A DNA stretch of 64,000 nt, taken from assembly GCF_014905115.1 (NCBI RefSeq), contig NZ_CP041235.1, positions 1,612,001 through 1,676,000 on the forward strand, in the 5' to 3' direction. Positions within the stretch are counted from its first letter, which is position 1; every line of letters starts with the position of its first letter. Shown one piece after another: positions 3,569-33,140 of this stretch. The translations under genes and the position numbers were made by a program. Below the pieces are notes generated by a model. That model was given only the letters and a program-made list of their open reading frames with translations, was not told the DNA's origin and did no database searches. The stretch comes from Sulfurimonas sediminis (GTDB taxonomy: Bacteria; Campylobacterota; Campylobacteria; Campylobacterales; Sulfurimonadaceae).

Positions 3569-4081
3569 TTAGGCAACCTTTTTCAAAATGATATTAGCCA
3601 TAGTTTCTCTGTCAAAACTATCACTGCTTTGTTTCAATGTCTCTTTTATGACATCTTCAACAACACTGCGAATCATTTTCTTTTCTTCAAATTCTTTTTT
3701 GAGAGCAAATTTTTTCACCATAGCTTCAATATCACTTTCTGCCTGTGCAATAATTGTGTCATTCAAAATTTTGTTCTCTTTTTTAGAAACAATCGCCAAC
3801 TCTTCAGCAAACTTTTCAGCCTCAGAAATTTTTGCCAATGCCTCTTTTTTAAGAGCGATTGATTCATTCAGCTTTTCCTGAACCTTTTTCAGTTCGTCAG
3901 CTATTGCCTGACTTCTTGATGCAAAGAAATTCTTTACAGGTTCCCCAACTAGATACCAAACAAGCCCGGCAAACAGCAAAAAGTTCACAGTTCTTTGAAC
4001 TATGTCTGTTCCTGCATGCTCGTGCCCAGATGCCAATGCATAAGTTGATATCATTAGCATTAATACTAAAATTCTACTCAC
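3569..4081 (-). CDS. atpF: Fo ATP synthase subunit b
   Basis: Membrane-anchored peripheral stalk subunit. The 170 aa begin with a cleavable-looking hydrophobic N-terminus (MSRILVLMLMISTYALASG), then a membrane segment (TVNFLLFAGLVWYLVG) and a long charged coiled coil. A leader-like N-terminus on subunit b is seen in Campylobacterota. It is paired with a second b-type subunit (b') immediately upstream. Confidence 0.93.
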   Translation of the reverse strand: MSRILVLMLMISTYALASGHEHAGTDIVQRTVNFLLFAGLVWYLVGEPVKNFFASRSQAIADELKKVQEKLNESIALKKEALAKISEAEKFAEELAIVSKKENKILNDTIIAQAESDIEAMVKKFALKKEFEEKKMIRSVVEDVIKETLKQSSDSFDRETMANIILKKVA

Positions 4082-4090
4082 ATTACACCT

Positions 4091-4513
4091 TTATATCTGA
4101 CTAAATTTAGCTTTTACAGCTTCTTTAAATACCGGAACTTGTGACATTAAGTCAGAAGTCAACTCATCTTTAGATTTTGCAAGTGATTGCTCAAACTCTA
4201 AATACTCTGCCGCGAGTTCAGCACGTTTTGATTCTAACTTACTGTCAGCTAATTCCTTAGCATCCGCGATAACTTTTTCTCTTAGGGCCGCAGCTTCCAG
4301 CTTGGCATTCATAATTATTGACTCTGCTTTTGCTTTGAGCTCATTGATTTCATTGTCATTTGATCCTACTTTTTCAAGATCTTTTTTAATGTCATCATCA
4401 CGCTTTTGCATAAAAGAAAGTAATGGGTTATAAAGCCAACTGTTCAGAACGGCTATAAGGGAAACAAATACAACAAATGTAGCCAAAAGTAGTATTGGAT
4501 TTATATCTAACAT
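4091..4513 (-). CDS. atpF': Fo ATP synthase subunit b'
   Basis: Second b-type stalk subunit. The 140 aa have one N-terminal membrane helix (ILLLATFVVFVSLIAVLNSWLY) followed by a heptad-rich coiled coil (KRDDDIKKDLEKVGSNDNE...). An AGGAGG ribosome site precedes the start, and a -10-like TATAAT lies at 4536-4541. It is the first gene of the atp cluster. Subunits a and c are not here, as in relatives where they lie elsewhere. Confidence 0.93.
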   Translation of the reverse strand: MLDINPILLLATFVVFVSLIAVLNSWLYNPLLSFMQKRDDDIKKDLEKVGSNDNEINELKAKAESIIMNAKLEAAALREKVIADAKELADSKLESKRAELAAEYLEFEQSLAKSKDELTSDLMSQVPVFKEAVKAKFSQI

Positions 4514-4535
4514 AGCACCTCCTAAAAGTTGCGTG

Positions 4536-4541
4536 ATTATA
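4536..4541 (-). promoter_or_regulatory. Putative -10 box for the atpF' operon
   Basis: TATAAT on the minus strand, about 22 bases upstream of the atpF' start. A second TATAAT lies at 4544-4549. No clear -35 box is visible, which is usual for Campylobacterota sigma70 promoters. Confidence 0.5.
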
Positions 4542-4597
4542 CTATTATAAAATTGAAACGATAGTTAAATGGAGGTATAAATTTGTTATTTGAGTGA

Positions 4598-5446
4598 TTA
4601 GTTTCTAAAATGTGTCAAAAATTCATCAATTTCATCTTGTGATACAAAACTGACGGTTATTTTATTTTTAGAAGCTTTTACATGTAATCCGAGTGCACTG
4701 AATTTTTCTTTTAGCTGTGCAAAATCATAATTTGCATCACTCTTTTTTACAGAATCAGTTGGTGCAGGCTCTACATTTTTCATGCTTTTTATCATAGCTT
4801 CAACTTCGCGTACACTCAGTTTCTGCCCTATAATCGAATTGAGTATCAGTTGCTGGTCTTTTTCATTTAAGCCAACCATTACTTTTGCATGCCCTGCCGA
4901 AATCTTTTTTTCAACCAGTGCTTTTTGTGTTTTTGGAGCAAGCTGCAGCAGACGCAGGGTATTTGTAATATGGGTTCTGCTTTTGTGAATAATATTGGCA
5001 AGTTCGTCATGTGTTACATCATGCAGCTTTATAAGTTCTGTATAGGCCTCTGCCAGTTCTACAGCATTTAACTCTTCTCTTTGAATATTTTCAATCAAAG
5101 CGAACTGGCGCATTTTTTGTTCATCAGAGTTGAGAACTACTGCCCGTATCTCTTTGAGTTTTGCAAGCTTTGAAGCACGAAGTCGTCGCTCTCCCGCAAT
5201 TAGGATATAGCCGTCAATATCTTCTGTTACAACGATGGGCTGAATCAGTCCGTCATTTTTTATAGATTCGGCAAGTTCCAAAAGTGCAGTTTCGTCAAAT
5301 GATTTTCTTGGTTGAAAAGGATTCGGCCGGATATCTTTGAGCGGAATCTCCAATACAGCATCATATTGGCTTCCTTCATTTTCATATGCCTCGTCTATTT
5401 CTCCAAGAAGAGCGTCCAGCCCTCTGCCTAATTTTTGTGACTTCAT
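4598..5446 (-). CDS. parB: Chromosome partitioning protein ParB
   Basis: DNA-binding CTPase that loads on parS sites and works with ParA in chromosome segregation. The 282 aa include the N-terminal ParB/Srx domain (IRPNPFQPRK, then AGERRLRASKLA at about residues 38-90), a central helix-turn-helix (HDELANIIHKSRTHITNTLRLL) and a C-terminal dimerisation region. Its start overlaps the parA stop by one base, so the two are translationally coupled. I saw no convincing parS site nearby. Confidence 0.96.
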   Translation of the reverse strand: MKSQKLGRGLDALLGEIDEAYENEGSQYDAVLEIPLKDIRPNPFQPRKSFDETALLELAESIKNDGLIQPIVVTEDIDGYILIAGERRLRASKLAKLKEIRAVVLNSDEQKMRQFALIENIQREELNAVELAEAYTELIKLHDVTHDELANIIHKSRTHITNTLRLLQLAPKTQKALVEKKISAGHAKVMVGLNEKDQQLILNSIIGQKLSVREVEAMIKSMKNVEPAPTDSVKKSDANYDFAQLKEKFSALGLHVKASKNKITVSFVSQDEIDEFLTHFRN

Positions 5447-6228
5447 TATCGTATAATCGCCTGTGCTAAATTTTGGTATGCAATGGAACCGCTTGATTTT
5501 ACATCATACAAAATTGCAGGTTTTCCGAATGACGGAGATTCTGCAAGTCTTACATTACGCGGTACCACTATATATTTATCTGCTGCATCTTTAAACAGTT
5601 TGCCTTTAAAATGCTGACGCAAATCGGCAAATACCTGTTTGGACAAATTGTTTTGTGATGAAAACATCGTTGGCAGAAAGCCTCTTACAGCAAGTTTCGG
5701 ATTAATTGATTTTCTTACCAATTTGACAGTATTGAGAAGCTGTGCTAACCCTTCAAGTGCAAAAAATTCACACTGTATAGGAATAATGACCGAGTTTGCC
5801 GCTGAAAGCGCATTGATAGTCATCGGACCAAGCGCTGGCGGAGAATCTATAATAATATAATCATACTCTTTTTGTACATTTGCAATTGCTTTTTTCAAAA
5901 CAAGTTCACGCCCTTTTGCTTTGTCTGCATCATAATACTCTTTTTCTATTCCCACAAGGCCTATGTTTGAAGGTGCCAAATGCAGTGTAGGCAAGTCTGA
6001 TTTCAAAATAATCTCTTTGAGCTTTTTTGTGCCTATAAGTACATGATAAATATTAAACTCATAATCATTTCTGTGAAAGCCCAATGATGTCGTGGCATTT
6101 GCCTGCGGATCTGAGTCAATCAAAAGCACTTTTTTTTCTGCTACAGCAAGTGACGCTGCCAAGTTTACAGCGGTAGTCGTTTTGCCTACTCCGCCCTTTT
6201 GATTTGCAATTACTATTACTTCACTCAT
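5446..6228 (-). CDS. parA: Chromosome partitioning ATPase ParA/Soj
   Basis: Deviant-Walker ATPase that drives origin segregation with ParB. The 260 aa carry the motif KGGVGKTT at residues 11-18, the Walker A' and B regions (LIDSDPQANATTSLG, IIIDSPPALG), and no N-terminal DNA-binding extension, so it is the chromosomal Soj type. It overlaps birA by 4 bases upstream and parB by 1 base downstream. Confidence 0.97.
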   Translation of the reverse strand: MSEVIVIANQKGGVGKTTTAVNLAASLAVAEKKVLLIDSDPQANATTSLGFHRNDYEFNIYHVLIGTKKLKEIILKSDLPTLHLAPSNIGLVGIEKEYYDADKAKGRELVLKKAIANVQKEYDYIIIDSPPALGPMTINALSAANSVIIPIQCEFFALEGLAQLLNTVKLVRKSINPKLAVRGFLPTMFSSQNNLSKQVFADLRQHFKGKLFKDAADKYIVVPRNVRLAESPSFGKPAILYDVKSSGSIAYQNLAQAIIR

Positions 6229-6860: not shown

Positions 6861-7755
6861 GTCCGAGTCTTTTCCCGTTAATATAAGAGATAACATCCAT
6901 CTCTTTTTTTGACTGTGGCTGTACCTTATAAATGCGAAGAGCCCCCTGCTTACATGTAACAACAATACTTTTTTTGTCTATTGCAGTTATTTTGCCGGCA
7001 TCAGCATGTTCTTCATCTTTTTTTTCAAGTTCTATCTCTTTTAATTTCAGTCCGCTTGCAAGATAAATTCCCGGCCACGGGGTAAAGGCACGGTATTTGT
7101 TATAAATCTCCTGTGCATTGTCAAAAACAACAGCACCGTCTGCTTTTGTTATTTTTTTACAATGTGAAGCCTGTGCATCATCCTGTTTTTTGGGCGTATA
7201 TGTATGAAAATTACGCAGCACATCTATCGTCAGATCAGCAGCAGTCTGGGTAAGCTTTTCAAACAACTCTTCAACCATCATCTTCTCATCGACAGAGACT
7301 TTCTCAATTTTTAAAATGTCACCCGTATCAAGCCCCTCTTCCATAAGCATGGCAGTTACACCGGTTACATTGTCGCCGTTTAGCAAGGTTTGCTGTATCG
7401 GGCTTGCTCCGCGATATTGCGGTAAAATCGAAGCGTGAAGATTGATACAGGGTGCATGATCTAAAATTTCTCGTGGCAAAATCTGTCCGTATGCAGCCAC
7501 CACTATAAAATCACAGGGAATTTCCAGAATCTCTTTTACAGTTTCCTCATCCTGAAGTTTTTTTGGCTGGTAGAGTGGAATGTTATACTCTTGCGCAGTA
7601 AGCTTCACAGGGGGAGGCGTCAGTACTTTTTTACGCCCGACCGGTTTGTCAGGCTGTGTATAGACGGCAACAACATTTATATCTTCTGTTGCTATCACTT
7701 TTTGAAGAATTTTCTGGGCATACTCAGGTGTCCCCATAAATATTATATTTTTCAT
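6841..7755 (-). CDS. fmt: Methionyl-tRNA formyltransferase
   Basis: Formylates initiator Met-tRNA using 10-formyl-THF. At 304 aa it is the usual length. The N-terminus IIFMGTPEYA and the active-site signature LHASILPQYRGASPIQ are clear, and the C-terminal OB-like domain follows. It lies 2 bases downstream of proB and overlaps birA. The palindrome TTACATGTAA at 6950-6959 encodes Thr-Cys-Lys near its C-terminus. Confidence 0.97.
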   Translation of the reverse strand: MKNIIFMGTPEYAQKILQKVIATEDINVVAVYTQPDKPVGRKKVLTPPPVKLTAQEYNIPLYQPKKLQDEETVKEILEIPCDFIVVAAYGQILPREILDHAPCINLHASILPQYRGASPIQQTLLNGDNVTGVTAMLMEEGLDTGDILKIEKVSVDEKMMVEELFEKLTQTAADLTIDVLRNFHTYTPKKQDDAQASHCKKITKADGAVVFDNAQEIYNKYRAFTPWPGIYLASGLKLKEIELEKKDEEHADAGKITAIDKKSIVVTCKQGALRIYKVQPQSKKEMDVISYINGKRLGLEDTLL

Positions 7756-7757
7756 TG

Positions 7758-8519
7758 CTAACCTTTACATGTAAAGAGAGTACCGCCCTTGTGGGAGCCT
7801 TCAAGCATAAAACTTTTCACATCACTTAAATCAAAACCACTGGCAAGAAATGTATCTATGTTTGCCTGCAGGAGATATTCTGCAGCTTTGAGTTTCGTAA
7901 CGATACCGCCTGTTGCAAAAACATTGTTTGGAGTAACTTCTTTGTGCAGCTCTTCTTCACTGATTTTGTTTACTGTTTTGAATGCTTTTGCCTCGGGGTT
8001 TTTTCTTGGATCGCTGTCATAGTAGGCATCAATATCTGAAAGAATAACAAGCATATCGGCTTGCATGTCTTTTGCTATGTATGCTGAGAGTTGGTCATTG
8101 TCACCAAGCTCAAGTTCATCTGTTGCCGTTGCATCATTTTCATTGACAATAGGAAGCACACTGTTTTTCAAAAGCGTTTCAACAGTTGCGCGCACACGCT
8201 TAATATCGGAGGGAGTATTCAGATTTGCAGCAGTCACTAACACCTGTGCTGTCAGTATTTCGTATTTTGCAAACTTGTTCGCATATTTATTCATTAAAAT
8301 AGGCTGACCTATTGCGGCTAAAGCCTGTTTGTTCGCGATGTTGTTTCTATCGAGTTTTAGCTCGGTATATCCGCCCGCAACTGCACCTGAAGAGACCAAA
8401 ATCACTTCATGCTCTTGTTTTAACTCGCTTAGAAATTCTACGAGAGAACGCATACGATCAAGTGCTATATTGCCATCCTGGGTCAAGACGGCACTGCCTA
8501 CTTTGACTACAACACGCAT
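7758..8519 (-). CDS. proB: Glutamate 5-kinase, short form without PUA domain
   Basis: First step of proline synthesis, phosphorylating glutamate. Motifs include VVKVGSAVLTQDG, LVSSGAVAGG and VNENDATATDELELGDNDQLSA of the amino-acid kinase fold. The 253 aa end right after the kinase domain, lacking the C-terminal PUA domain found in enterobacterial ProB, as is common in Campylobacterota. It sits 4 bases after obg. TTACATGTAA at 7765-7774 encodes the penultimate Thr-Cys-Lys. Confidence 0.95.
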   Translation of the reverse strand: MRVVVKVGSAVLTQDGNIALDRMRSLVEFLSELKQEHEVILVSSGAVAGGYTELKLDRNNIANKQALAAIGQPILMNKYANKFAKYEILTAQVLVTAANLNTPSDIKRVRATVETLLKNSVLPIVNENDATATDELELGDNDQLSAYIAKDMQADMLVILSDIDAYYDSDPRKNPEAKAFKTVNKISEEELHKEVTPNNVFATGGIVTKLKAAEYLLQANIDTFLASGFDLSDVKSFMLEGSHKGGTLFTCKG

Positions 8520-18999: not shown

Positions 19000-21185
19000 T
19001 TGGCAAGAAAATTGACAACAAAACAAAAAATCGGAACTTCCCTTAACTTTTTACTAGGCAAACGTGATCTTGGTGTTGTCTTTTTTGTAATGGCTATTTT
19101 GGCGATTATTATCGTGCCTCTGCCTTCTTCCGTTTTAGATGTTTTGTTGACGATTTCTATAGCTTTATCTGTTTTAATTTTGCTTATTTCATTATATGTG
19201 CCAAAACCGACAGATTTGACAACTTTCCAACACTCATACTTATTCTTACCCTTTTTAGACTTTCACTAAATATTGCTACAACAAGAATGATTTTAAGTCA
19301 TGGGTATGAAGGACCCGAACAGGTCAGTGATGTTATTACAAGTTTTGGTGATTTTGTTGTCGGAGGAAATTATGTCATTGGGATTATCGTTTTTTCCATT
19401 TTGGTTCTTATAAACTTTATGGTCATCACAAAAGGTTCCACAAGGGTTGCAGAAGTTGCAGCACGTTTTGTACTTGACTCTATGCCCGGAAAGCAGATGG
19501 CTGTTGATGCAGATTTAAATGCAGGACTTATAGACGATGCCGAAGCCAAACAACGCCGTGCGGAAATTCTTCAGGATGCCAATTTTTACGGGGCAATGGA
19601 TGGTTCTTCAAAATTTGTCAAAGGGGATGCCGTTGCAGGTATAATTATTACTCTTATAAATATCATCGGCGGTTTTCTCATCGGTGTTTTCCAGTACGAT
19701 ATGAGCGTTACAGACAGCGCTTCTACCTTTACACTTCTTACAATCGGTGACGGTCTTGTCAGCCAGATTCCGGCACTCATTACCTCAACGGCAACCGGTA
19801 TTATCATTACCCGTTCCTCAAGTGACGGTGACAATTTTGCCGAAGGCACTATCTCACAGATGATAGGCAATGCAAAGATTATGATGATAGTCGGCTTCAT
19901 CATGCTCTTATTTGCTCTTGTTCCTGGCCTGCCAACTGCCTCTATGGGGTTTGTCGGGATAATCTTCGCCCTGCTTGGGTGGTCTATCTACAAATATGAA
20001 AAAGGAGAACTTTCCATTTTGGATGTTGAAAATCTCCTTGGTGTCAAGACAAAAGAAGAGGTAGAAAAAGAGAAAGAGAGAATCAAACCGAAAAAAACGA
20101 ACGAAGAGATTGCCAAAGAAGAGGAAAATGCGCTTGATGACATACTCAAAGTAGAAATGCTTGAACTGACTTTGGGATATCAACTTATAAAACTGGCCGA
20201 CAGTTCTCAGGGTGGTGATTTGCTTGAACGTATTCGTTCTATGCGAAGAAAAATAGCAAATGACTATGGATTTTTAATGCCGCAGGTCAGAATACGTGAC
20301 AACTTACATCTCAAACCTAACCAATATCAGGTACTGCTTAAAGGTATTGCCATTGGTGAGGGGGAAATCATGCCTGATAAATTTCTTGCGATGGACAGCG
20401 GTATGGCTACAGGAGAGATTCAGGGAGAACCGACAAAAGAACCTGCTTTTGGACTCGATGCTCTGTGGATAGCACCAGAACAAAAAGAAGATGCAATTAT
20501 TAACGGATATACCGTTGTTGATCCTGCTACAGTAATCTCCACACATATGAGTGAACTCATCAAGCGTAATGCAGAAGAGCTTTTAACCCGTCAAGAAGTG
20601 CAGTCACTTATTGATAAAATAAAAGATGATTATCCTGTAATCATTGATGATGTTTTAAAAGTGGCTTCCATCGGTCTTATTCAAAGAGTTCTCAAAGCAC
20701 TGTTGCATGAAAAAATTCCGCTTAAAGATATGCTTACTATTTTGGAGACAATTGCAGATATTGCCGAATATACAAAAAATGTTGACCTTATAACAGAACA
20801 GGTCAGAGCCAGACTTTCTCGCGTCATTACCCAAATGTATGCAGGGGATGATGGGGTGATACGCCTTTTGACATTTGATACACAGACAGAGCAGTTGTTA
20901 CTGCAAAAATCACAAGAACAAGACGGTGTGAGAAATCTCATGCTCAATGTAGGAGAAATAAATGCTCTGATTCAGGCAACAAGCACAAAGGCTGCAGACT
21001 TACTGCAAAAAGGGATTTCCCCTGTTATTATTATCGTCGATCCACAAATCCGTCGCAGTGTTGCAGAAATATTTGAGAGATTTTCTCTTGATGTTGTAAC
21101 ACTCTCTCATGCAGAAATTGACTCGAGTGCTACATTTGAAGTGATGGGCTCTATTTCAATTCAAACACAAGAAACAAATAACTAA
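19000..21185 (+). pseudogene. flhA: Flagellar export gate protein FlhA, interrupted by a frameshift
   Basis: Export gate of the flagellar type III secretion system. The N-terminal reading frame (19000-19269, 89 codons) ends in a stop. The rest (residues from MILSHGYEG on) continues in another frame to 21185. After DLTTF the expected [20 protein letters not shown] is encoded out of frame from 19227, so one T is missing in the short T run at 19224-19226. With one base restored the protein would be about 728 aa, full length. The membrane domain, FHIPEP-type loop region and cytoplasmic domain are otherwise intact. The start is a TTG. It could be a sequencing error, a phase-variable or a real null allele. 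Confidence 0.9.
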
Positions 21186-21195
21186 AAGGGTACAA

Positions 21196-22275
21196 ATGAA
21201 AAACAGAACTATTCATCATCTTTCACACATTGATTTGGATGGCTACAGCTGCCAGCTGGTCATGCAGTACACACCGTACAAAAGATTTAACTACAACTCC
21301 AATTACGGGGCAGAAGTGAAACAAAAGCTCGATCTTATGCTGGAAAACATCAGAAAAGCAAAAGAAAAAGCTTACATACTCATCACGGACCTGAATCTTA
21401 CAGCGGATGAATCCCGTTGGCTCAGCCATGAGGTAAAAAAAATGAATGACGGTGCCTTTGATGTCAAGTTACAACTTCTTGATCACCACGGAAGCGGGGA
21501 AGAGAGTGCAAAAAAGCATGAATGGTACTATCTTGATACCAGTCGCTGCGCTACAAAAATCACCTATGACTACGCAAAAGAACACTTTGAACTCAACGAA
21601 CCTGCATGGATGGAGAAGTATGTTGATGTGGTCAATGCGGTAGATTTATGGAAACAGGAAGAACATGATAATTTTGAATACGGGAAAGTCTGTATGCGTC
21701 TTGTAACAGAAACAAAAGAACTCAACCGAATAATGTTTCCTGATGAAGACTCAAACTACAAACTCACACTGTTGCATAAAGCGGCAAAATTCATTCATGA
21801 ACCTGATGCCCCTATCTTACTTGATGAAAAAATCCACTCTTTAAAAAAGAATTTTTTCAGACGCGACAAAGATGATACACTCGATAATCTTGCCACACGA
21901 TATGTTGTTGAGCTTATGGGCAAAGCCAGAAGTGAAAAAACAATCTATTACAAGGGATACAGAGGCTACCTGAGTTATGGTATAGGAAACACCTCCATAG
22001 TCGGCAACGGATTTTTAACAGCCTACCCTGAATATGATTTTATTGTGGATGTCAGCTACAGAGGAACAATGAGCCTGCGCGCAAGCGACAAGGTAAGTGT
22101 TGCACAGATATCCAAAGAGTGGGCAAACGGCGGAGGACACCCAAATGCTGCCGGAGGAAGAATCATGGGCTTTAAAGAGCAGTTTCGTTATGACAAAGTC
22201 AAACAGCAGATTGAAAAAGTCATCAACGACAAAGAAGCGGTTGCCGGTGATTTGGAATATAAAAAAGAGGACTAA
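21196..22275 (+). CDS. DHH family phosphoesterase
   Basis: 359-aa protein of the DHH/DHHA1 superfamily, metal-dependent phosphoesterases that include nanoRNases, pAp phosphatases and RecJ. Visible motifs are HLSHIDLDGYSCQ (motif I), LITDLNL, the DHHGSG motif III, and the C-terminal GGGHPNAAGGRI of DHHA1. Exact substrate cannot be told from sequence alone. It lies 10 bases after flhA and converged on the amidase gene before the island at 22290-24987 was inserted. Confidence 0.88.
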   Translation: MKNRTIHHLSHIDLDGYSCQLVMQYTPYKRFNYNSNYGAEVKQKLDLMLENIRKAKEKAYILITDLNLTADESRWLSHEVKKMNDGAFDVKLQLLDHHGSGEESAKKHEWYYLDTSRCATKITYDYAKEHFELNEPAWMEKYVDVVNAVDLWKQEEHDNFEYGKVCMRLVTETKELNRIMFPDEDSNYKLTLLHKAAKFIHEPDAPILLDEKIHSLKKNFFRRDKDDTLDNLATRYVVELMGKARSEKTIYYKGYRGYLSYGIGNTSIVGNGFLTAYPEYDFIVDVSYRGTMSLRASDKVSVAQISKEWANGGGHPNAAGGRIMGFKEQFRYDKVKQQIEKVINDKEAVAGDLEYKKED

Positions 22276-22289
22276 GCCTCAAGGCTGCT

Positions 22290-22317
22290 TTATCTTTTTT
22301 GAGAATTTATAAAATAG
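22290..22317. repeat. Left direct repeat of the island (attL-like)
   Basis: 28 bp identical to 24960-24987, beginning TTATCTTTTTTG. The right copy is the stop codon and last nine codons of the amidase gene; the left copy is a displaced duplicate. This is what site-specific integration at a gene 3' end leaves behind. Confidence 0.75.
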
Positions 22318-22399
22318 TATTCTATCAATACTAAAGCAGACATAAAGCTGTCACTTAAGAAGTTTAAACTATCTTATAAAAAATAGACGGAGAACCTAA

Positions 22400-22924
22400 A
22401 TGGAAAAATTTGAACTAAGAGAAATAAATGAAACAATAGATAAAAAGACTTTATACCCATATATTGATGCTACAGAGTTTAATGATAAAATAAAAAAAGC
22501 TATAAAAAGAATGCTTGGGGTTGTTATCCCAAGTGGTGATAATGATATAAATCTTGATTTTGATGATGTGAAAATCATTATGCGTCATGGAGGAATGGGA
22601 TTTAGTGGTGTTGGAGAACATGATGGTGAAAATTCAGCAGTCGAAGCCCTGAAAAAAGCAATAGTAGATTCATCATTGGATTATAATTTCATGAATCAAG
22701 TGTCAGGTATATTGATACATTTTGAACTTCATCCAGATTTACCTATTATAAATATTGCAGAAGCAATGGATATCATACATAAAAATACTAACAATGAAGC
22801 TGATATCGCCTGGGGAACAACAACCGATAGGTCAATTAGTAAAAATTATGTAAAAGTCACTATTTTGTTTACCGGATTTGAAAAAAACAAGCTTAAGCAT
22901 ATGGCTGTTAATAATATTTATTAA
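22400..22924 (+). CDS. Orphan FtsZ C-terminal-domain-like protein
   Basis: 174 aa resembling the second half of FtsZ without the GTP-binding domain. After a short unique N-terminus (residues 1-25), helix H7/H8-like sequence leads to NLDFDD at residues 51-56, matching the FtsZ T7-loop motif NxDxxD. Then come VKIIMRHGGMGFSGVGEHDGEN, the ISGILIHFE-like strand and the AEAMDIIHKN...ADIAWGTTTD...VKVTILFTGF strands of the tubulin/FtsZ C-terminal sandwich. No tubulin signature (GGGTGS/T-G) is present. It has a GGAG site before the ATG. It sits first in a small island with a nuclease. It might cap or poison FtsZ filaments, but that is inference. Confidence 0.72.
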   Translation: MEKFELREINETIDKKTLYPYIDATEFNDKIKKAIKRMLGVVIPSGDNDINLDFDDVKIIMRHGGMGFSGVGEHDGENSAVEALKKAIVDSSLDYNFMNQVSGILIHFELHPDLPIINIAEAMDIIHKNTNNEADIAWGTTTDRSISKNYVKVTILFTGFEKNKLKHMAVNNIY

Positions 22925-23217
22925 AGTTCATAATGAATCAATCATTTTCATCCTATATTCCAGAAATTTAATTTTAAATAACAAGTTGACAGCCTTAGCA
23001 TCGGATGTGTACAAAGAAGCTACAAAGATTAATTTTATTGCAAAGAAGAAGATGGTCCTTGTATCTGTTGGATTGAGGGTATAAAAAGTAACTTTGACAA
23101 TAGTACTAAAATTTGGAATATTGATGATGCTAAGTACCTATCCAAAAATAAAACCAATTAATTAACCCGAATGTCATAGTTCACTATCAATATATAAAAA
23201 CAATAAGGAATACAAAG
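22925..23217 (+). other. Non-coding or decayed gene stretch in the island
   Basis: About 290 bases without a full gene. A 39-codon open stretch ending at 23161 (reading KEEDGPCICWIEGIKSN...) looks like the tail of a broken gene that I cannot identify. The stretch is AT-rich and its reading frames are interrupted. Confidence 0.45.
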
Positions 23218-23277
23218 ATGGGAAAAGACAAAAAACATTTTTTAGATATAAGTATACAGCAAAGACTCTACGTATGA
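23218..23277 (+). CDS. Possible 19-aa leader peptide coupled to the nuclease gene
   Basis: ATG at 23218 with AAGGAA 7 bases upstream, reading MGKDKKHFLDISIQQRLYV and stopping in an ATGA overlap with the nuclease start at 23274. The nuclease has no good ribosome site of its own, so translational coupling is plausible. It may also be a remnant. Confidence 0.4.
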   Translation: MGKDKKHFLDISIQQRLYV

Positions 23278-24584
23278 AAGAAAAAAATTTATTAGAACAA
23301 ATCAAAGTAATTCAGAAAAAATACTATGAGATAAATAAAATTACAGGTGAGAATTTCAATATTTTTGAAGCTGGACATATAGGGCATATAGAGACTTTCC
23401 ATACAAGACTGATTGCTGAATTATTATGCAAAAAGGGTTCACATAATCAAGGAGATACTTTTTTAAAACTTTTTTTTAATAAGCTCAAATTAAAAACAAA
23501 TTATGAAAATACAAAAGTCTATTCTGAATACCAAACTGACAATGGGAGAAGAATTGATATTGTTATTGAAAATGAAAAATTAATTATTGGAATTGAAGCA
23601 AAAATTTATGCAAAAGATCAAGATAAACAGATTCAGGATTATTACACTTATTTAACAAATAAAAATAAAAAAGTTTATCTAATCTATTTAACACTTGATG
23701 GTCATTTACCAGATGAACAAAGTAAAGGAGAAGTAAGTCACGATCAAATAATAATTATGTCCTTTAAAACTGAAATATATGATTGGATTATACTTTGCAT
23801 CAAAGAGGTATATGATAAGATTAATTTAAGAGAATCGTTATTGATTTACAAAAATTTGTTGGAAAAATTAACAAATCAGAATCTAAAAAAGGAAATTGAA
23901 ATGGTCAAAATTTTAAATAGTAAAGAAAATATTGAATCAGCTTTTAACTTATTTGATGTATATGAAAGAGCTTGGGCAGAGAAGGAATATAATTTCTGGT
24001 GTGATTTGTATGCAAAGGTTGAGAAAAACATTGGTTCTCAATGGGAAGATGGTGATGATATATTTTTGAAAGAAAAAGATAAAAGTGTCTGGTATAAGAG
24101 TGATGGTGAACCTTATGATACAGAAGAGAGTATTAAACAAATTAAAAGCCTGCGATATGGATCAACAAATAAATTATTCGGTATTGCTTTTAAACAAAAT
24201 TGTGATGGTCGAAATATTTATCTGATTGTTGCTTATGCGAATTCTTCTGAAGTTGGTTGGCTGTATATAGAAATTAAATCTAATGATAATAAAAATTTCA
24301 ATCATACTCAAATACGAGAATTGCTAATAGACAATAATGATGTTCTCCTAGATTTTAAAGACTTTGACGATACTTCTGTGTATAAAATAATTGAAGAAAT
24401 AAAATTTCCTTCATACAAAAATAGAATGGGAAACTTTGAGTTATTTGGCGAAAGTAAGTATAAAACAATTATCAATAAATTATCAAAAGAATTAATTTGT
24501 AAACTTAATGAAATTGATAAAATATTAAGAAGAAATAATGAGAGCGTAAAAAATTCTGTGTCAGCTACCATTTGTAACACCTAA
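23274..24584 (+). CDS. PD-(D/E)XK nuclease family protein, C-terminus altered by IS insertion
   Basis: 436 aa. The N-terminal half carries the nuclease core: ETFHTRLIAELL, GRRIDIVIEN (Asp95) and IIGIEAKIYAKDQDKQIQDYY (Glu108-x-Lys110), as in the PDDEXK_4 group. The remainder is a lysine-rich region of unknown function with a WE...DDIFLKEKDK segment. From codon 423 (24541) the sequence is the end of an IS256-type element, so the last 14 residues (ESVKNSVSATICNT) are probably borrowed and the native C-terminus is lost. It is very AT-rich against its neighbours, suggesting transfer. Confidence 0.75.
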   Translation: MKEKNLLEQIKVIQKKYYEINKITGENFNIFEAGHIGHIETFHTRLIAELLCKKGSHNQGDTFLKLFFNKLKLKTNYENTKVYSEYQTDNGRRIDIVIENEKLIIGIEAKIYAKDQDKQIQDYYTYLTNKNKKVYLIYLTLDGHLPDEQSKGEVSHDQIIIMSFKTEIYDWIILCIKEVYDKINLRESLLIYKNLLEKLTNQNLKKEIEMVKILNSKENIESAFNLFDVYERAWAEKEYNFWCDLYAKVEKNIGSQWEDGDDIFLKEKDKSVWYKSDGEPYDTEESIKQIKSLRYGSTNKLFGIAFKQNCDGRNIYLIVAYANSSEVGWLYIEIKSNDNKNFNHTQIRELLIDNNDVLLDFKDFDDTSVYKIIEEIKFPSYKNRMGNFELFGESKYKTIINKLSKELICKLNEIDKILRRNNESVKNSVSATICNT

Positions 24585-24848
24585 CTACAACTCTAAATAC
24601 TCATCCAGCCTCCCCTCGAAAAAGATAGCTAATTGCGAAATAGTTTGACTCCAGTTATGCACTGGCTGAGTCCATTTTTCCTGTGCATTTTGAATGCCCA
24701 TATAAAGTAGCTTCAGTAAAGAATCTTGACTCGGAAAAGCTCCTTTCGTTTTTGTAAGTTTACGAAACTGTCTATGTACAGATTCAATAATATTCGTTGT
24801 GTACATAATTTTTCTGATTGGATATGGGTACTTGAAATAGTGAGACAA
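24585..24848 (-). pseudogene. IS256 family transposase, C-terminal fragment
   Basis: About 87 codons ending the transposase: WENLSHYFKYPYPIRKIMYTTN, then ESVHRQFRKLTKTKGAFPSQ and KWTQPVHNWSQTISQLAIFF. This is the conserved C-terminus of Mutator-type transposases (IYTTN.IES..RQ.RK.TK.KGAFP). A stop lies just upstream, within the repeated IS-end sequence, and the catalytic N-terminal two-thirds is gone. Confidence 0.85.
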
Positions 24849-24879
24849 GTTCTCCCATTTATTATGGGAGTGTTCAAAA

Positions 24880-24954
24880 GGGAGTGTTCAAAATTCTTTA
24901 TCAACCTTTTATATTCTTATTATATCAGGCTAATAAAGAATTTTGAACACTCCC
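24880..24954. repeat. 75-bp MITE-like inverted repeat
   Basis: 22-bp perfect inverted repeats starting GGGAGTGTTCAAAATTC at 24880-24901 and 24933-24954, with a 31-base centre that includes a TATAAT-like box. It is built from the IS256-type end. It sits 5 bases from the right direct repeat of the island. Confidence 0.7.
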
Positions 24955-24959
24955 CTCCC

Positions 24960-24987
24960 TTATCTTTTTTGAGAATTTATAAAATAG
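24960..24987. repeat. Right direct repeat of the island (attR-like)
   Basis: 28 bp inside the 3' end of the amidase gene, identical to 22290-22317. It contains the amidase stop codon, so integration would keep the gene intact. Confidence 0.75.
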
Positions 24988-26318
24988 CGCTCCACTCCAT
25001 TGGCAAGTCCCTGTGCCATTGTTTTTTGGTAACTTCTGCTTACAAGCCGTCTGGCTTCTGTCGGATGCGTTATAAATCCGACTTCAACCAGGACAGAAGG
25101 CATTTGGGCCCCTACCAGTACCCAAAACGGCCCTTCTCTGACCCCTGCATCTTTCACATTCTTGTATCTGCTTTTGAGTGTTGCTAACGCCCCTCTTTGC
25201 AGATCAATTGCCAGCTTATTTGATGCAACAATGTTGTGTGAATTTATGGTGTTTAAAAAGCTTTGCTTTCCGTAATAATCCATCTCATCCAAATCTGCCG
25301 AATTTTCCATTTCTGCTACTTTTTTTGCCCTGCTTGAGCGGGATTTTGAGAGAAAATAGCATTCCAGTCCAGAAACTCTTTTGGCATCTTTGCGTCCAAC
25401 TGCATTGGCATGGATACTGATAAAAATATCTGCATTTTTTCTGTTTGCATATTTTGTTCTGTTTCTTAATTTTATAAAGCGGTCACTGTCACGCGTCATG
25501 TACACTGTAAAACCTCTTGCGCGAAGTATACGCTTTAGCTCTCTGGCTATACTCAAGACCACAATTTTTTCTCTGTATTTTCTGTATCCTATGGCTCCAG
25601 GGTCTTTTCCGCCGTGCCCTGCATCTATGACTATAACTTTATTTCTGTCGAGTCTTTTGGGTGATTTTTTCTTTGTTTTTGCTGATTTGTTGATGATTTT
25701 TATAGAAAGCACTTTGCCTTTTTTAAAAAAACGGATTTTTAAAGGCGTTTTGTTTTGAATAACCAGCCGCAATGTATTTGGATTGTACTGTGCCAGTTTA
25801 ATTTTATCAACCCCCTCTTGCTTGAGAGTATTTGACTTCTTCAGCATGGAAGCATGTATATCAAAAACATATTTATAGATGCTCTTTTTTTTATCACTCA
25901 GCGTAAAATAGTTCACCTGTTTCTTTTGAAGATTTTTATCAAACTGTAACACCAGTCTTTTATTATAAAAGCGAACTGATTTTAATTTATGTGAAGATGT
26001 AACTTGAATGTTTTTTTTTGCTTTGTAATTTTTTTTGGAAATGTGTGAGAGGTGTTTATACTCCTGTTCATATCTTTTTACATCAATATGTAATCTATGT
26101 CCACTGGAGATTATCCCTTTTAGAGCGGAGTGTTTAAGTTTGTTGTCTCCGTGCAACAATGCTCTTAAGTAGAGGTTTTTATAATCATTATATGCACGAA
26201 ACTGATTGCTTTTACTCGAAGATTTTAAAAAAGAATCTGCCCTTTTTAAAATCTCCTGATCATTGACAGCATATAAAGCAGTAATAAAAAAAAGTATGAG
26301 AGCAAAAACTTTTATCAT
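24960..26318 (-). CDS. N-acetylmuramoyl-L-alanine amidase
   Basis: Periplasmic zinc amidase that cleaves the peptide from peptidoglycan glycan strands, used for daughter-cell separation. The 452 aa have a signal peptide (VFALILFFITALYAVN), a lysine-rich AMIN-like region, and an Amidase_3 domain from about residue 225. The zinc ligands are visible in VIVIDAGHGGKDPGAIG, the FISIHANAVG motif and LVEVGFITHP (catalytic Glu). It resembles AmiC/AmiA of Campylobacterota. Its 3' end is the insertion target of the neighbouring island. Confidence 0.93.
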   Translation of the reverse strand: MIKVFALILFFITALYAVNDQEILKRADSFLKSSSKSNQFRAYNDYKNLYLRALLHGDNKLKHSALKGIISSGHRLHIDVKRYEQEYKHLSHISKKNYKAKKNIQVTSSHKLKSVRFYNKRLVLQFDKNLQKKQVNYFTLSDKKKSIYKYVFDIHASMLKKSNTLKQEGVDKIKLAQYNPNTLRLVIQNKTPLKIRFFKKGKVLSIKIINKSAKTKKKSPKRLDRNKVIVIDAGHGGKDPGAIGYRKYREKIVVLSIARELKRILRARGFTVYMTRDSDRFIKLRNRTKYANRKNADIFISIHANAVGRKDAKRVSGLECYFLSKSRSSRAKKVAEMENSADLDEMDYYGKQSFLNTINSHNIVASNKLAIDLQRGALATLKSRYKNVKDAGVREGPFWVLVGAQMPSVLVEVGFITHPTEARRLVSRSYQKTMAQGLANGVERYFINSQKR

Positions 26319-31831: not shown

Positions 31832-33140
31832 TAGGTAAATCCCACAAAAAATAAAACAAATCTTAATCAATATAGTTTGATTCAATCAATTGAACACTAA
31901 AATCATCACGATAAAGAGCATTTCTTTTAATATCTGCCATTGTAGTTTTACCGGTTAGGAGTACCTTTTTATCTTTGTTCTCATTTAAAAACAACTGATA
32001 AAGATTAACAGTAAAACTTCTAAGAATAGCTATAGAGAAAGGCTCTTTATATGCTATATGGTCATCTTCTTCAGTAAGCATATCTAAGTGATAGTGATAT
32101 GTTTCCACTCTCCAATGTTGCAGTATCTTTTGAAGAAACTCTTTTGCAGTTGTTTTAAAGTTAGCCATTAAATATTGAGTTGAAATTGTAACTTCACCAG
32201 TCTGTGCATTTGTTAATGTTTTCGTCACTTTAATGAGTGATTGAATATTTTGAAAGTTCTCATGATACATAACTAAATCAGCACTTTTATTTTGAAAAAC
32301 TTCTACTTTTCGAGAGACTCTTTTGTTGTTTTCAGTTAAATAGCTATCTTCATCATCAACTCTATCTGTAGGCTGATTAAACTCTTCTATGGTCTTTATA
32401 GCTTTCTCTTTGAGGTGTTTCTGGTTATCTTTGAGTTTTGCTATATATCTGTTACCTTGCTCATCAATAGTGTTGAGAATCTCTGATTGAGTAAGCAGTG
32501 CATCAAAGGAAAATATCTGTCCTTCATTGCTAAAAATATTATCGTTTAAAACCTCTTTGAGTGCAGTAATTTCGCTACTCTTATTTTTATCTAAAAACTT
32601 GTGAGCAAACACTATTTTTATATCTTTATCCAAGATATTTAGTATTGCTTTATGTCTTTCCTGTGTGTATTGACCATTCACGTCGCTACCTCTCAGCCAC
32701 TTCCCGTCAATAGCAATATTTTCTTGTGCAATGAATGGAAAAAAGAACTCTCTAAATACTTTTTCCAAAGCATTATTATCTGTGTTTATCAATAAACGAT
32801 GATATGTTGATTTGGAAGGAATCGTTATCTCTTCTTTATCAAAAATCTCTTTGAGTATTGCATTGTCTTTGTTATATATCATCCATGAAAATATATCCTT
32901 AAAAGTTGTATTTCCTTTGATAAGTGCAAAAAGTGTCATGAAAAGAACTTCGTGCAATGGATATTCTATCTTCCCTGTATCTACTCTATAGTCTGGGATA
33001 CTTTTTAGCGATTCAAGTAAGGCTTTTGTGCGTGTTAATTTGATGGTAAACTCCTTGTTTTAGGAGTCTAAGCAATATTTCTTCCAGTTCTTTTGAATCT
33101 ATTGATTAAGATTTATTTTATTTTTCGTGGGATTTACCTA
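31832..33140 (-). mobile_element. ISAs1-type insertion sequence, copy 2 (1309 bp)
   Basis: Same length and orientation as copy 1, ends TAGGTAAATCCCAC / inverted at 33140, with a 10-bp target duplication TGTCAATTGC (31822-31831 and 33141-33150). About seven base differences from copy 1, at the ends. It inserted into the last codons of the GGDEF gene. The two copies have different target duplications, so they arrived independently. Confidence 0.95.
31863..33044 (-). CDS. ISAs1 family DDE transposase
   Basis: Same protein as in copy 1 except for one C-terminal residue (SNYID against SNYAD). As in copy 1, the conserved N-terminal segment has no ATG/GTG/TTG start. AAGGAG lies 6 bases before an ATC at 33042-33044. 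The in-frame ATA present in copy 1 is ACA here, which argues against ATA as the shared start. The first ordinary start is the TTG at 32957. Confidence 0.85.
   Translation of the reverse strand: MKLTRTKALLESLKSIPDYRVDTGKIEYPLHEVLFMTLFALIKGNTTFKDIFSWMIYNKDNAILKEIFDKEEITIPSKSTYHRLLINTDNNALEKVFREFFFPFIAQENIAIDGKWLRGSDVNGQYTQERHKAILNILDKDIKIVFAHKFLDKNKSSEITALKEVLNDNIFSNEGQIFSFDALLTQSEILNTIDEQGNRYIAKLKDNQKHLKEKAIKTIEEFNQPTDRVDDEDSYLTENNKRVSRKVEVFQNKSADLVMYHENFQNIQSLIKVTKTLTNAQTGEVTISTQYLMANFKTTAKEFLQKILQHWRVETYHYHLDMLTEEDDHIAYKEPFSIAILRSFTVNLYQLFLNENKDKKVLLTGKTTMADIKRNALYRDDFSVQLIESNYID

Follow-up and report, generated by a model that had tools for sequence, protein, structure and literature searches.

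The gene at positions 22400–22924 (forward strand) of the window, that is, the whole 64,000-nucleotide stretch of the Sulfurimonas sediminis chromosome analyzed here, encodes a stand-alone FtsZ half consisting of the T7 loop and the C-terminal domain (CTD), hereafter FtsZc. We showed that FtsZc is a horizontally acquired FtsZ C-terminal half under purifying selection, and that it belongs to a mobile regulon of defense-type cassettes in Sulfurimonas marked by the palindrome GACATAAAGNTGTC and, in most genomes, also by a WYL-domain regulator. Rather than a broken FtsZ copy, FtsZc is probably a functional component of an antiviral system. Whatever goes beyond a mobile, conserved FtsZ half within a regulon of defense-type genes that share an operator is our inference; our preferred reading, to which we give somewhat less than an even chance, is a mobile defense module in which FtsZc imitates the face of FtsZ to which division inhibitors of phages, such as Gp0.4 of T7, bind, and gates an effector.

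The 174-aa product, which starts at an ATG with a GGAG Shine-Dalgarno sequence, had been read in the initial annotation as the C-terminal half of FtsZ lacking the GTPase domain, and profile searches bore this out. In Pfam, FtsZ_C (PF12327) was the sole match, well above the cut-off (E 6.4e-14, residues 65–161, 52.5 bits against 27), with no match to Tubulin or any GTPase domain; the NCBIfam ftsZ profile (TIGR00065) was matched at positions 190–332 of 353 only (E 2e-22, under the family cut-off), and the phmmer matches in the PDB were FtsZ chains beginning at about the end of H7. The T7 loop reads NDINLDFDD, in agreement with the NLDFDD given initially. Homology begins at the end of H7, the GTPase domain with its GGGTGTG motif is absent, and so is the FtsZ tail peptide, the C-terminus being AVNNIY as against LDIPAYMRQQQD in the host FtsZ. 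An AlphaFold2 model of the product alone, built from a 25-row alignment of mainly FtsZ rows, had a mean pLDDT of 78 and about 90 across most of the CTD (with 6 rows only, the model was poor, at pLDDT 40); Foldseek assigned it the FtsZ C-terminal fold (E 7e-13), and VIA-align against Bacillus subtilis FtsZ gave Z 16.3 over 151 residues. Because the GTP site is missing, autonomous GTP-dependent polymerization by FtsZc is unlikely, judging from its sequence. The host genome carries a separate, normal and intact ftsZ of 371 aa elsewhere on the chromosome; its product is 48% identical to FtsZc over 133 aa, and these two proteins are the only FtsZ_C matches in the genome. A short terminal motif resembling VNNI or NNY (window positions 22903–22921) was observed in many divergent FtsZc proteins; NN also occurs in the host FtsZ linker at about the same place, and the motif may be inherited.

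Six other Sulfurimonas genomes encode the identical stand-alone architecture with identical ends, at 53–64% identity to the window FtsZc; additional close copies are frameshifted or interrupted by contig ends. Pairwise dN/dS in this close group was about 0.3 (for example, dN 0.21 and dS 0.65 against L023). Since the stand-alone form recurs in other Sulfurimonas at such a ratio, we concluded that FtsZc is not a decaying ftsZ fragment. About 30 more divergent versions exist, and the distant relatives, some from the genus and some from other families, form a series from a degenerate GTPase domain to none: a 314-aa form with a degenerate domain (GGLGGQTG, L026), forms of 277, 253, and 243 aa with an eroded one, and forms of about 105–190 aa without it. 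Constant absence of the N-terminal domain thus held for the close group, the domain being either degenerate or absent in the distant ones. The FtsZc paralogues diverge fast from one another, some islands carry more than one copy (L032, L062), and pseudogenes were found in L067 (frameshift) and as a second copy in genome G011. The FtsZc group is most closely related to the FtsZ proteins of the hosts themselves, at about 48% identity; the tree is poorly resolved and compatible with one or several origins.

Three candidate relatives were set aside. In L058, a second near-complete FtsZ of 459 aa (3715–5094) has an extra, OB-fold-like C-terminal stretch; next comes a 171-aa protein containing part of an FtsZ GTPase domain (5101–5616), and a 128-aa FtsZc and a WYL gene are nearby; in L068, from a related family, a degenerate 216-aa FtsZ copy (7460–8110) lies directly 3' of the host ftsZ and resembles a local tandem duplication. 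Both the 459-aa and the 216-aa proteins clustered with host FtsZ in the tree, as recent duplicates, and were excluded; L037, a FIST-type protein by eye, was judged a chance match. The suggestion of a phage origin was not supported, nor was a plasmid origin: matches in phage and plasmid records reached only 25–38% identity, the one examined "plasmid" match, from C. jejuni, was a normal ftsA-ftsZ locus, and no FtsZc was found in IMG/VR. An FtsZ-like protein was present in 31 IMG/VR viral contigs of up to about 100 kb (L154–L184); in L160 (1483–2418) and L183 (1474–2409), where its neighbors are alike, it has 311 aa and ends right after the CTD, and it appears to be a phage-encoded FtsZ lacking the C-terminal tail.

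FtsZc lies in an inserted island of 2.68 kb (22276–24959) between the genes for a DHH phosphoesterase (21196–22275) and an amidase (24960–26318), with a GC content of 0.284, lower than in the flanks (0.41 and 0.38). At least 14 Sulfurimonas genomes lack the island and have the two flanking genes side by side; in G011 these are 20 bp apart, and their products are 99.7% (DHH) and 94% (amidase) identical to those of the window, while the FtsZc of G011 itself resides at a different site and is only 60% identical to that of the window. The island also encodes a 436-aa PDDEXK_4 nuclease (23274–24584, forward strand; PF14281, 1.8e-32; PADLOC PDC-S26, 4e-79) with the motif RIDIVIE...GIEAK, so that the earlier impression of a mobile-looking island with a nuclease was well founded. 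It further contains, on the reverse strand, a Mutator-family (IS256-type) transposase fragment (24585–24848; PF00872, 3.8e-11, profile positions 320–378 of 379 only). FtsZc and the nuclease are separated by a decayed-looking gap of 349 bp, and their frames are not coupled. Weak traces of what may have been the N-terminal part of a DUF2779/RNase H gene (23169–23237, forward strand) were indicated by alignments of ECHSSLSIYKNNKEYKDGKRQKT to L099 (52% over 23 aa, E 0.015) and to the DUF2779 gene start in L067 (43%, E 0.07), both E-values being from a small search set; a DUF2779/RNase H gene lies near FtsZc in other loci. Elsewhere in the window, flhA (19000–21185) appeared by eye to be split into frames 19000–19269 and 19287–21185, owing either to a sequencing error or to a frameshift near position 19250, and a 364-aa ORF at 31863–32957 resembled an ISAs1-type transposase by eye.

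Comparison of the DNA upstream of FtsZc genes revealed a conserved block made up of an operator palindrome and a -10 box. In the window the operator, GACATAAAGCTGTC (GACA-N6-TGTC), occupies 22339–22352 on the forward strand and overlaps the expected -35 region. The GACATAAAGNTGTC palindrome lies 47 bp upstream of FtsZc and is the sole copy in the 2.32-Mb genome; even at one mismatch, no second operator copy was found in the window. At a fixed spacing from the operator is a predicted -10 box, TAAACT (22365–22370, forward strand), the genus consensus after 44 operator sites being TATACT (by position, T.84, A.89, T.50, A.84, C.64, T.91). Exact operator sites numbered 81 in 39 of the 135 genus genomes, compared with 3 for the reversed control pattern, and the FtsZc loci (494 kb) held 52 sites when one mismatch was allowed, where 0.8 would be expected. 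The operator-to-gene distance was mostly 39–50 bp (median distance to the start codon, 45 bp). This operator-promoter is common to the genes for FtsZc, AAA ATPases, LRR, PcfJ-like, SIR2, and PDDEXK_4 proteins, and WYL regulators; the operator-preceded AAA ATPases are IetA-like and also belong to the viral ATPase family phrog_10401. By PADLOC and Pfam, the defense-type partners of FtsZc include PDC-S26, SoFic, HEC-06, SIR2, and IetA-like AAA, and PADLOC gave no match for FtsZc itself. The proposed defense-type context was supported. The idea that every operator cassette contains FtsZc was rejected, because 25 further operator-containing stretches (L106–L130) had none; FtsZc is thus one cassette type among many.

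With genomes taken as independent, and with the FtsZc set including a few contig-edge fragments, the operator was present in 21 of the 26 FtsZc genomes versus 18 of the 109 others (p 9e-10), the WYL subfamily in 20 of 26 versus 16 of 109 (p 2e-9), and the two co-occurred across the genus genomes (p 2e-7). The WYL protein may bind the operator, and the pattern fits BrxR-type regulation (PMC9122601); judged by the context of its genes, the regulon would be antiviral. No regulator of this subfamily was matched in the window genome at E 1e-40; thus, the window FtsZc may be an orphan of the regulon. Given also the decayed 349-bp gap and the uncoupled frames, the window copy may represent a partly dismantled cassette.

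We then compared FtsZc with 16 whole FtsZ proteins from other families as controls. Expressed as a fraction of control identity, the T7 loop (0.87), S8-H10 loop (1.18), H10 (1.23), and S9 (0.88) were retained, whereas the end of H7 (0.38), H8 (0.39), S7 (0.51), and H9 (0.53) were lost. The T7 loop, S8-H10 loop, and H10 form what we take to be the polymer "bottom" face, which would contact the next FtsZ subunit, and this surface is the best-preserved part relative to whole FtsZ proteins. These three presumed interface elements were fixed as a set after an initial look at the per-element values. Of 133 circular shifts, 1 gave a contrast as extreme for the close group and 4 did so for all; the divergent subset in this test excluded the weakly similar proteins in L070–L073 (other families). 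The Asp equivalent to Escherichia coli D212 was kept in 27 of 28 FtsZc proteins, but the T7 Asn, present in all 16 controls, was found in only 43%, and several distant FtsZc proteins have lost parts of the T7 motif. From these residue patterns, the polymer face of FtsZc appears to be kept more than catalysis.

The frames of FtsZc overlap or adjoin about seven unrelated effector families: GIY-YIG-like (overlap -4; L054, L055), AAA (-1; L056), SIR2 (-23 in L057, +16 in L028), PcfJ-like (-37 and -4; L061 and L072), LRR (-4 and -16; L063 and L030), and Fic (-4; L065) proteins, together with PDDEXK_4 in a common gene run (L029, L031, L028). The PDDEXK_4 nuclease adjoins FtsZc or lies within two genes of it in L028, L029, L031, and L072. 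FtsZ halves thus recurred beside defense-type genes of many kinds; the GIY-YIG identity of the L054/L055 partner is a motif reading only (GLYQIYG...LLYIGRT), its Pfam and PDB searches having given no match. The regulon also contains stand-alone FtsZ GTPase halves without a CTD, FtsZ-N (L067, L115, L128, L132, L133, L034), with Pfam Tubulin matches down to 5e-27 and intact GGGGxN and GGGxGSG motifs. Most have an N-terminal hydrophobic helix, and they are described here as membrane-anchored; their partners, AAA and PcfJ-like proteins, are as for FtsZc. Clear FtsZ-N was found in only five genus genomes and not in the window genome; in G106 the gene order is AAA, FtsZ-N, and a frameshifted FtsZc, and in G068 one gene separates FtsZ-N from FtsZc. 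Beyond these genes, a cassette of two GmrSD_N (DUF262) proteins and a DUF2779/RNase H-like protein recurred in these islands (L027:10744–16300, L059, L067, L075, L076), in some loci under a GACATAAAGNTGTC-type operator; PADLOC matched one GmrSD protein to HEC-06 and, weakly, the DUF2779 protein to Cas4.

According to the decoy or sensor reading that we prefer, the T7-loop/H10 face kept in FtsZc would be the binding surface for phage division inhibitors such as Gp0.4 of T7, and also for SulA, and FtsZc without the GTP-binding half would not polymerize alone. An FtsZ inhibitor made by an invading phage would bind FtsZc, and the complex would change the state of the cognate effector, whereby infection would be stopped; this effector would most likely be the PDDEXK_4 nuclease here and a SIR2, Fic, GIY-YIG-like, PcfJ-like, AAA, or LRR protein elsewhere. 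Where present, the WYL regulator would raise cassette expression upon infection or DNA damage. Gp0.4 of T7 has been modeled onto the synergy-loop surface of FtsZ, and CapRel-Ebc is triggered only by the Gp0.4-FtsZ complex (PMC13423816). The balance tilts towards a sensor or regulatory subunit because FtsZ halves overlap the frames of many effector genes, and because the T7-loop/C-terminal face is the Gp0.4 target in CapRel-Ebc triggering (PMC13423816). A decoy or sensor would also fit a protein that keeps the face, appears unable to polymerize, couples to changing effectors, and diverges fast. We counted in its favor the shared operator-promoter, the co-occurrence of FtsZc with the operator and with the WYL regulator, the retention of the T7 loop, S8-H10 loop, and H10, the dN/dS of about 0.3, and the complementary FtsZ-N halves with AAA and PcfJ-like partners, and against it the decayed-looking 349 bp between FtsZc and the nuclease in the window, their uncoupled frames, the lack of this WYL subfamily in the window genome, and the T7 motif losses in several distant FtsZc proteins. 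We know of no phage inhibitor of Sulfurimonas FtsZ. The broader proposition of a new class of immune sensor, in which the essential division protein is cut into halves used as stand-alone decoys, with FtsZc and, separately, a membrane-bound GTPase half exchanged among many effectors that share an operator, and in which a phage attacking division would thereby trigger immunity, is one that we regard as possible but doubtful.

The initial annotation had instead suggested a division inhibitor that caps or destabilizes filaments. In a fuller form of this reading, FtsZc would be induced by infection or DNA damage and would bind through its T7 face to the GTP face of host FtsZ at the filament end; elongation would be blocked, and division would halt during the action of the nuclease or another effector. 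In keeping with a cap, FtsZc preserves the T7/H10 face and lacks the partner half; the D212-equivalent Asp is kept nearly throughout, the hosts' own FtsZ proteins are the nearest relatives, and in Caulobacter the division inhibitor didA is under the control of an HTH-WYL regulator of the DriD type (PMC4211646). However, frame-coupling to many different effectors would be left without explanation, distant FtsZc proteins would fit the top face of host FtsZ poorly, and, because more than half of FtsZc proteins have lost the T7 Asn, a GTPase-stimulating version is weakened; we consider capping the main rival, though rather unlikely. An antitoxin- or chaperone-like partner, which would keep a neighboring effector inactive until lost or displaced, with the FtsZ mimicry unused, would suit a small gene whose frame overlaps with Fic, SIR2, and other potentially toxic genes and which occurs in more than one copy in some islands; yet so many unrelated partners would each demand a new binding mode, and retention of the polymer face would go unexplained, which makes this reading improbable.

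A still smaller chance attaches to a split FtsZ, in which FtsZc and a separate membrane-anchored FtsZ-N would build a second filament system, possibly placing effectors at the membrane. The intact nucleotide-binding motifs and hydrophobic helix of FtsZ-N in the regulon, and the gene arrangements in G106 and G068, point in this direction, but a clear FtsZ-N was found in five genus genomes only, the window genome has none, and the FtsZc of G106 is frameshifted. Least probable of all is a relic, that is, a truncated ftsZ copy carried by insertion sequences and being lost. Broken copies do exist, and the window island has an insertion sequence fragment and a decayed gap; nevertheless, boundaries alike in several species, the low dN/dS, and the intact operator, promoter, and ribosome-binding site largely refute it.

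Phages often attack FtsZ, host FtsZ was shown in 2026 to act as co-sensor for CapRel-Ebc, and plants evolved decoy domains. A family of dedicated FtsZ halves tied to many effectors would suggest that bacteria evolved FtsZ decoys in a plant-like manner, and would offer a ready set of effectors; such a family would explain the recurrence in Campylobacterota of truncated "ftsZ" genes, which are easily dismissed as fragments. The shared operator makes further regulon cassettes findable by a simple DNA search.

Compared with FtsZ itself, FtsZc is alike in the end of H7, the T7 loop, H8, the C-terminal domain, and the predicted fold; it differs in that FtsZ has a GTPase domain and a tail peptide, whereas FtsZc is accessory, mobile, and extra to an intact chromosomal ftsZ. 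The window nuclease is a clear member of PADLOC PDC-S26 (4e-79), and the FtsZ half stands outside PADLOC. The open-access literature yielded neither a family of stand-alone FtsZ C-terminal domains nor any defense loci with FtsZ halves; WYL-regulated defense loci are already known, and FtsZ halves as their swappable members are new as far as could be checked. BrxR/CapW-type loci (PMC9122601, PMC9122589) likewise place an HTH-WYL regulator by diverse defense genes with an inverted-repeat operator, but the Sulfurimonas regulon has one short operator across many separate cassettes, FtsZ halves included, and the window genome is without the regulator. FtsZl1 and FtsZl2 (PMC2875224) and the tubulins of NTPase conflict systems (PMC7159879) are likewise extra FtsZ/tubulin-superfamily proteins outside division, some in conflict systems; they are defined by the GTPase domain, whereas FtsZc has lost it and keeps the other half only, the conserved nucleotide-binding core domain that defines FtsZl1 and FtsZl2 (PMC2875224) being absent. 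Capping inhibitors of the SulA/MciZ type differ from FtsZc in origin, and the retained T7 face is the sole pointer to a putative binding of FtsZ by FtsZc. In CapRel-Ebc (PMC13423816), phage defense senses the T7-loop/C-terminal face of FtsZ, the face that FtsZc keeps; no CapRel homologue was seen here, and the co-sensor in CapRel-Ebc is the host's own FtsZ, whereas in Sulfurimonas it would be a dedicated extra FtsZ half.
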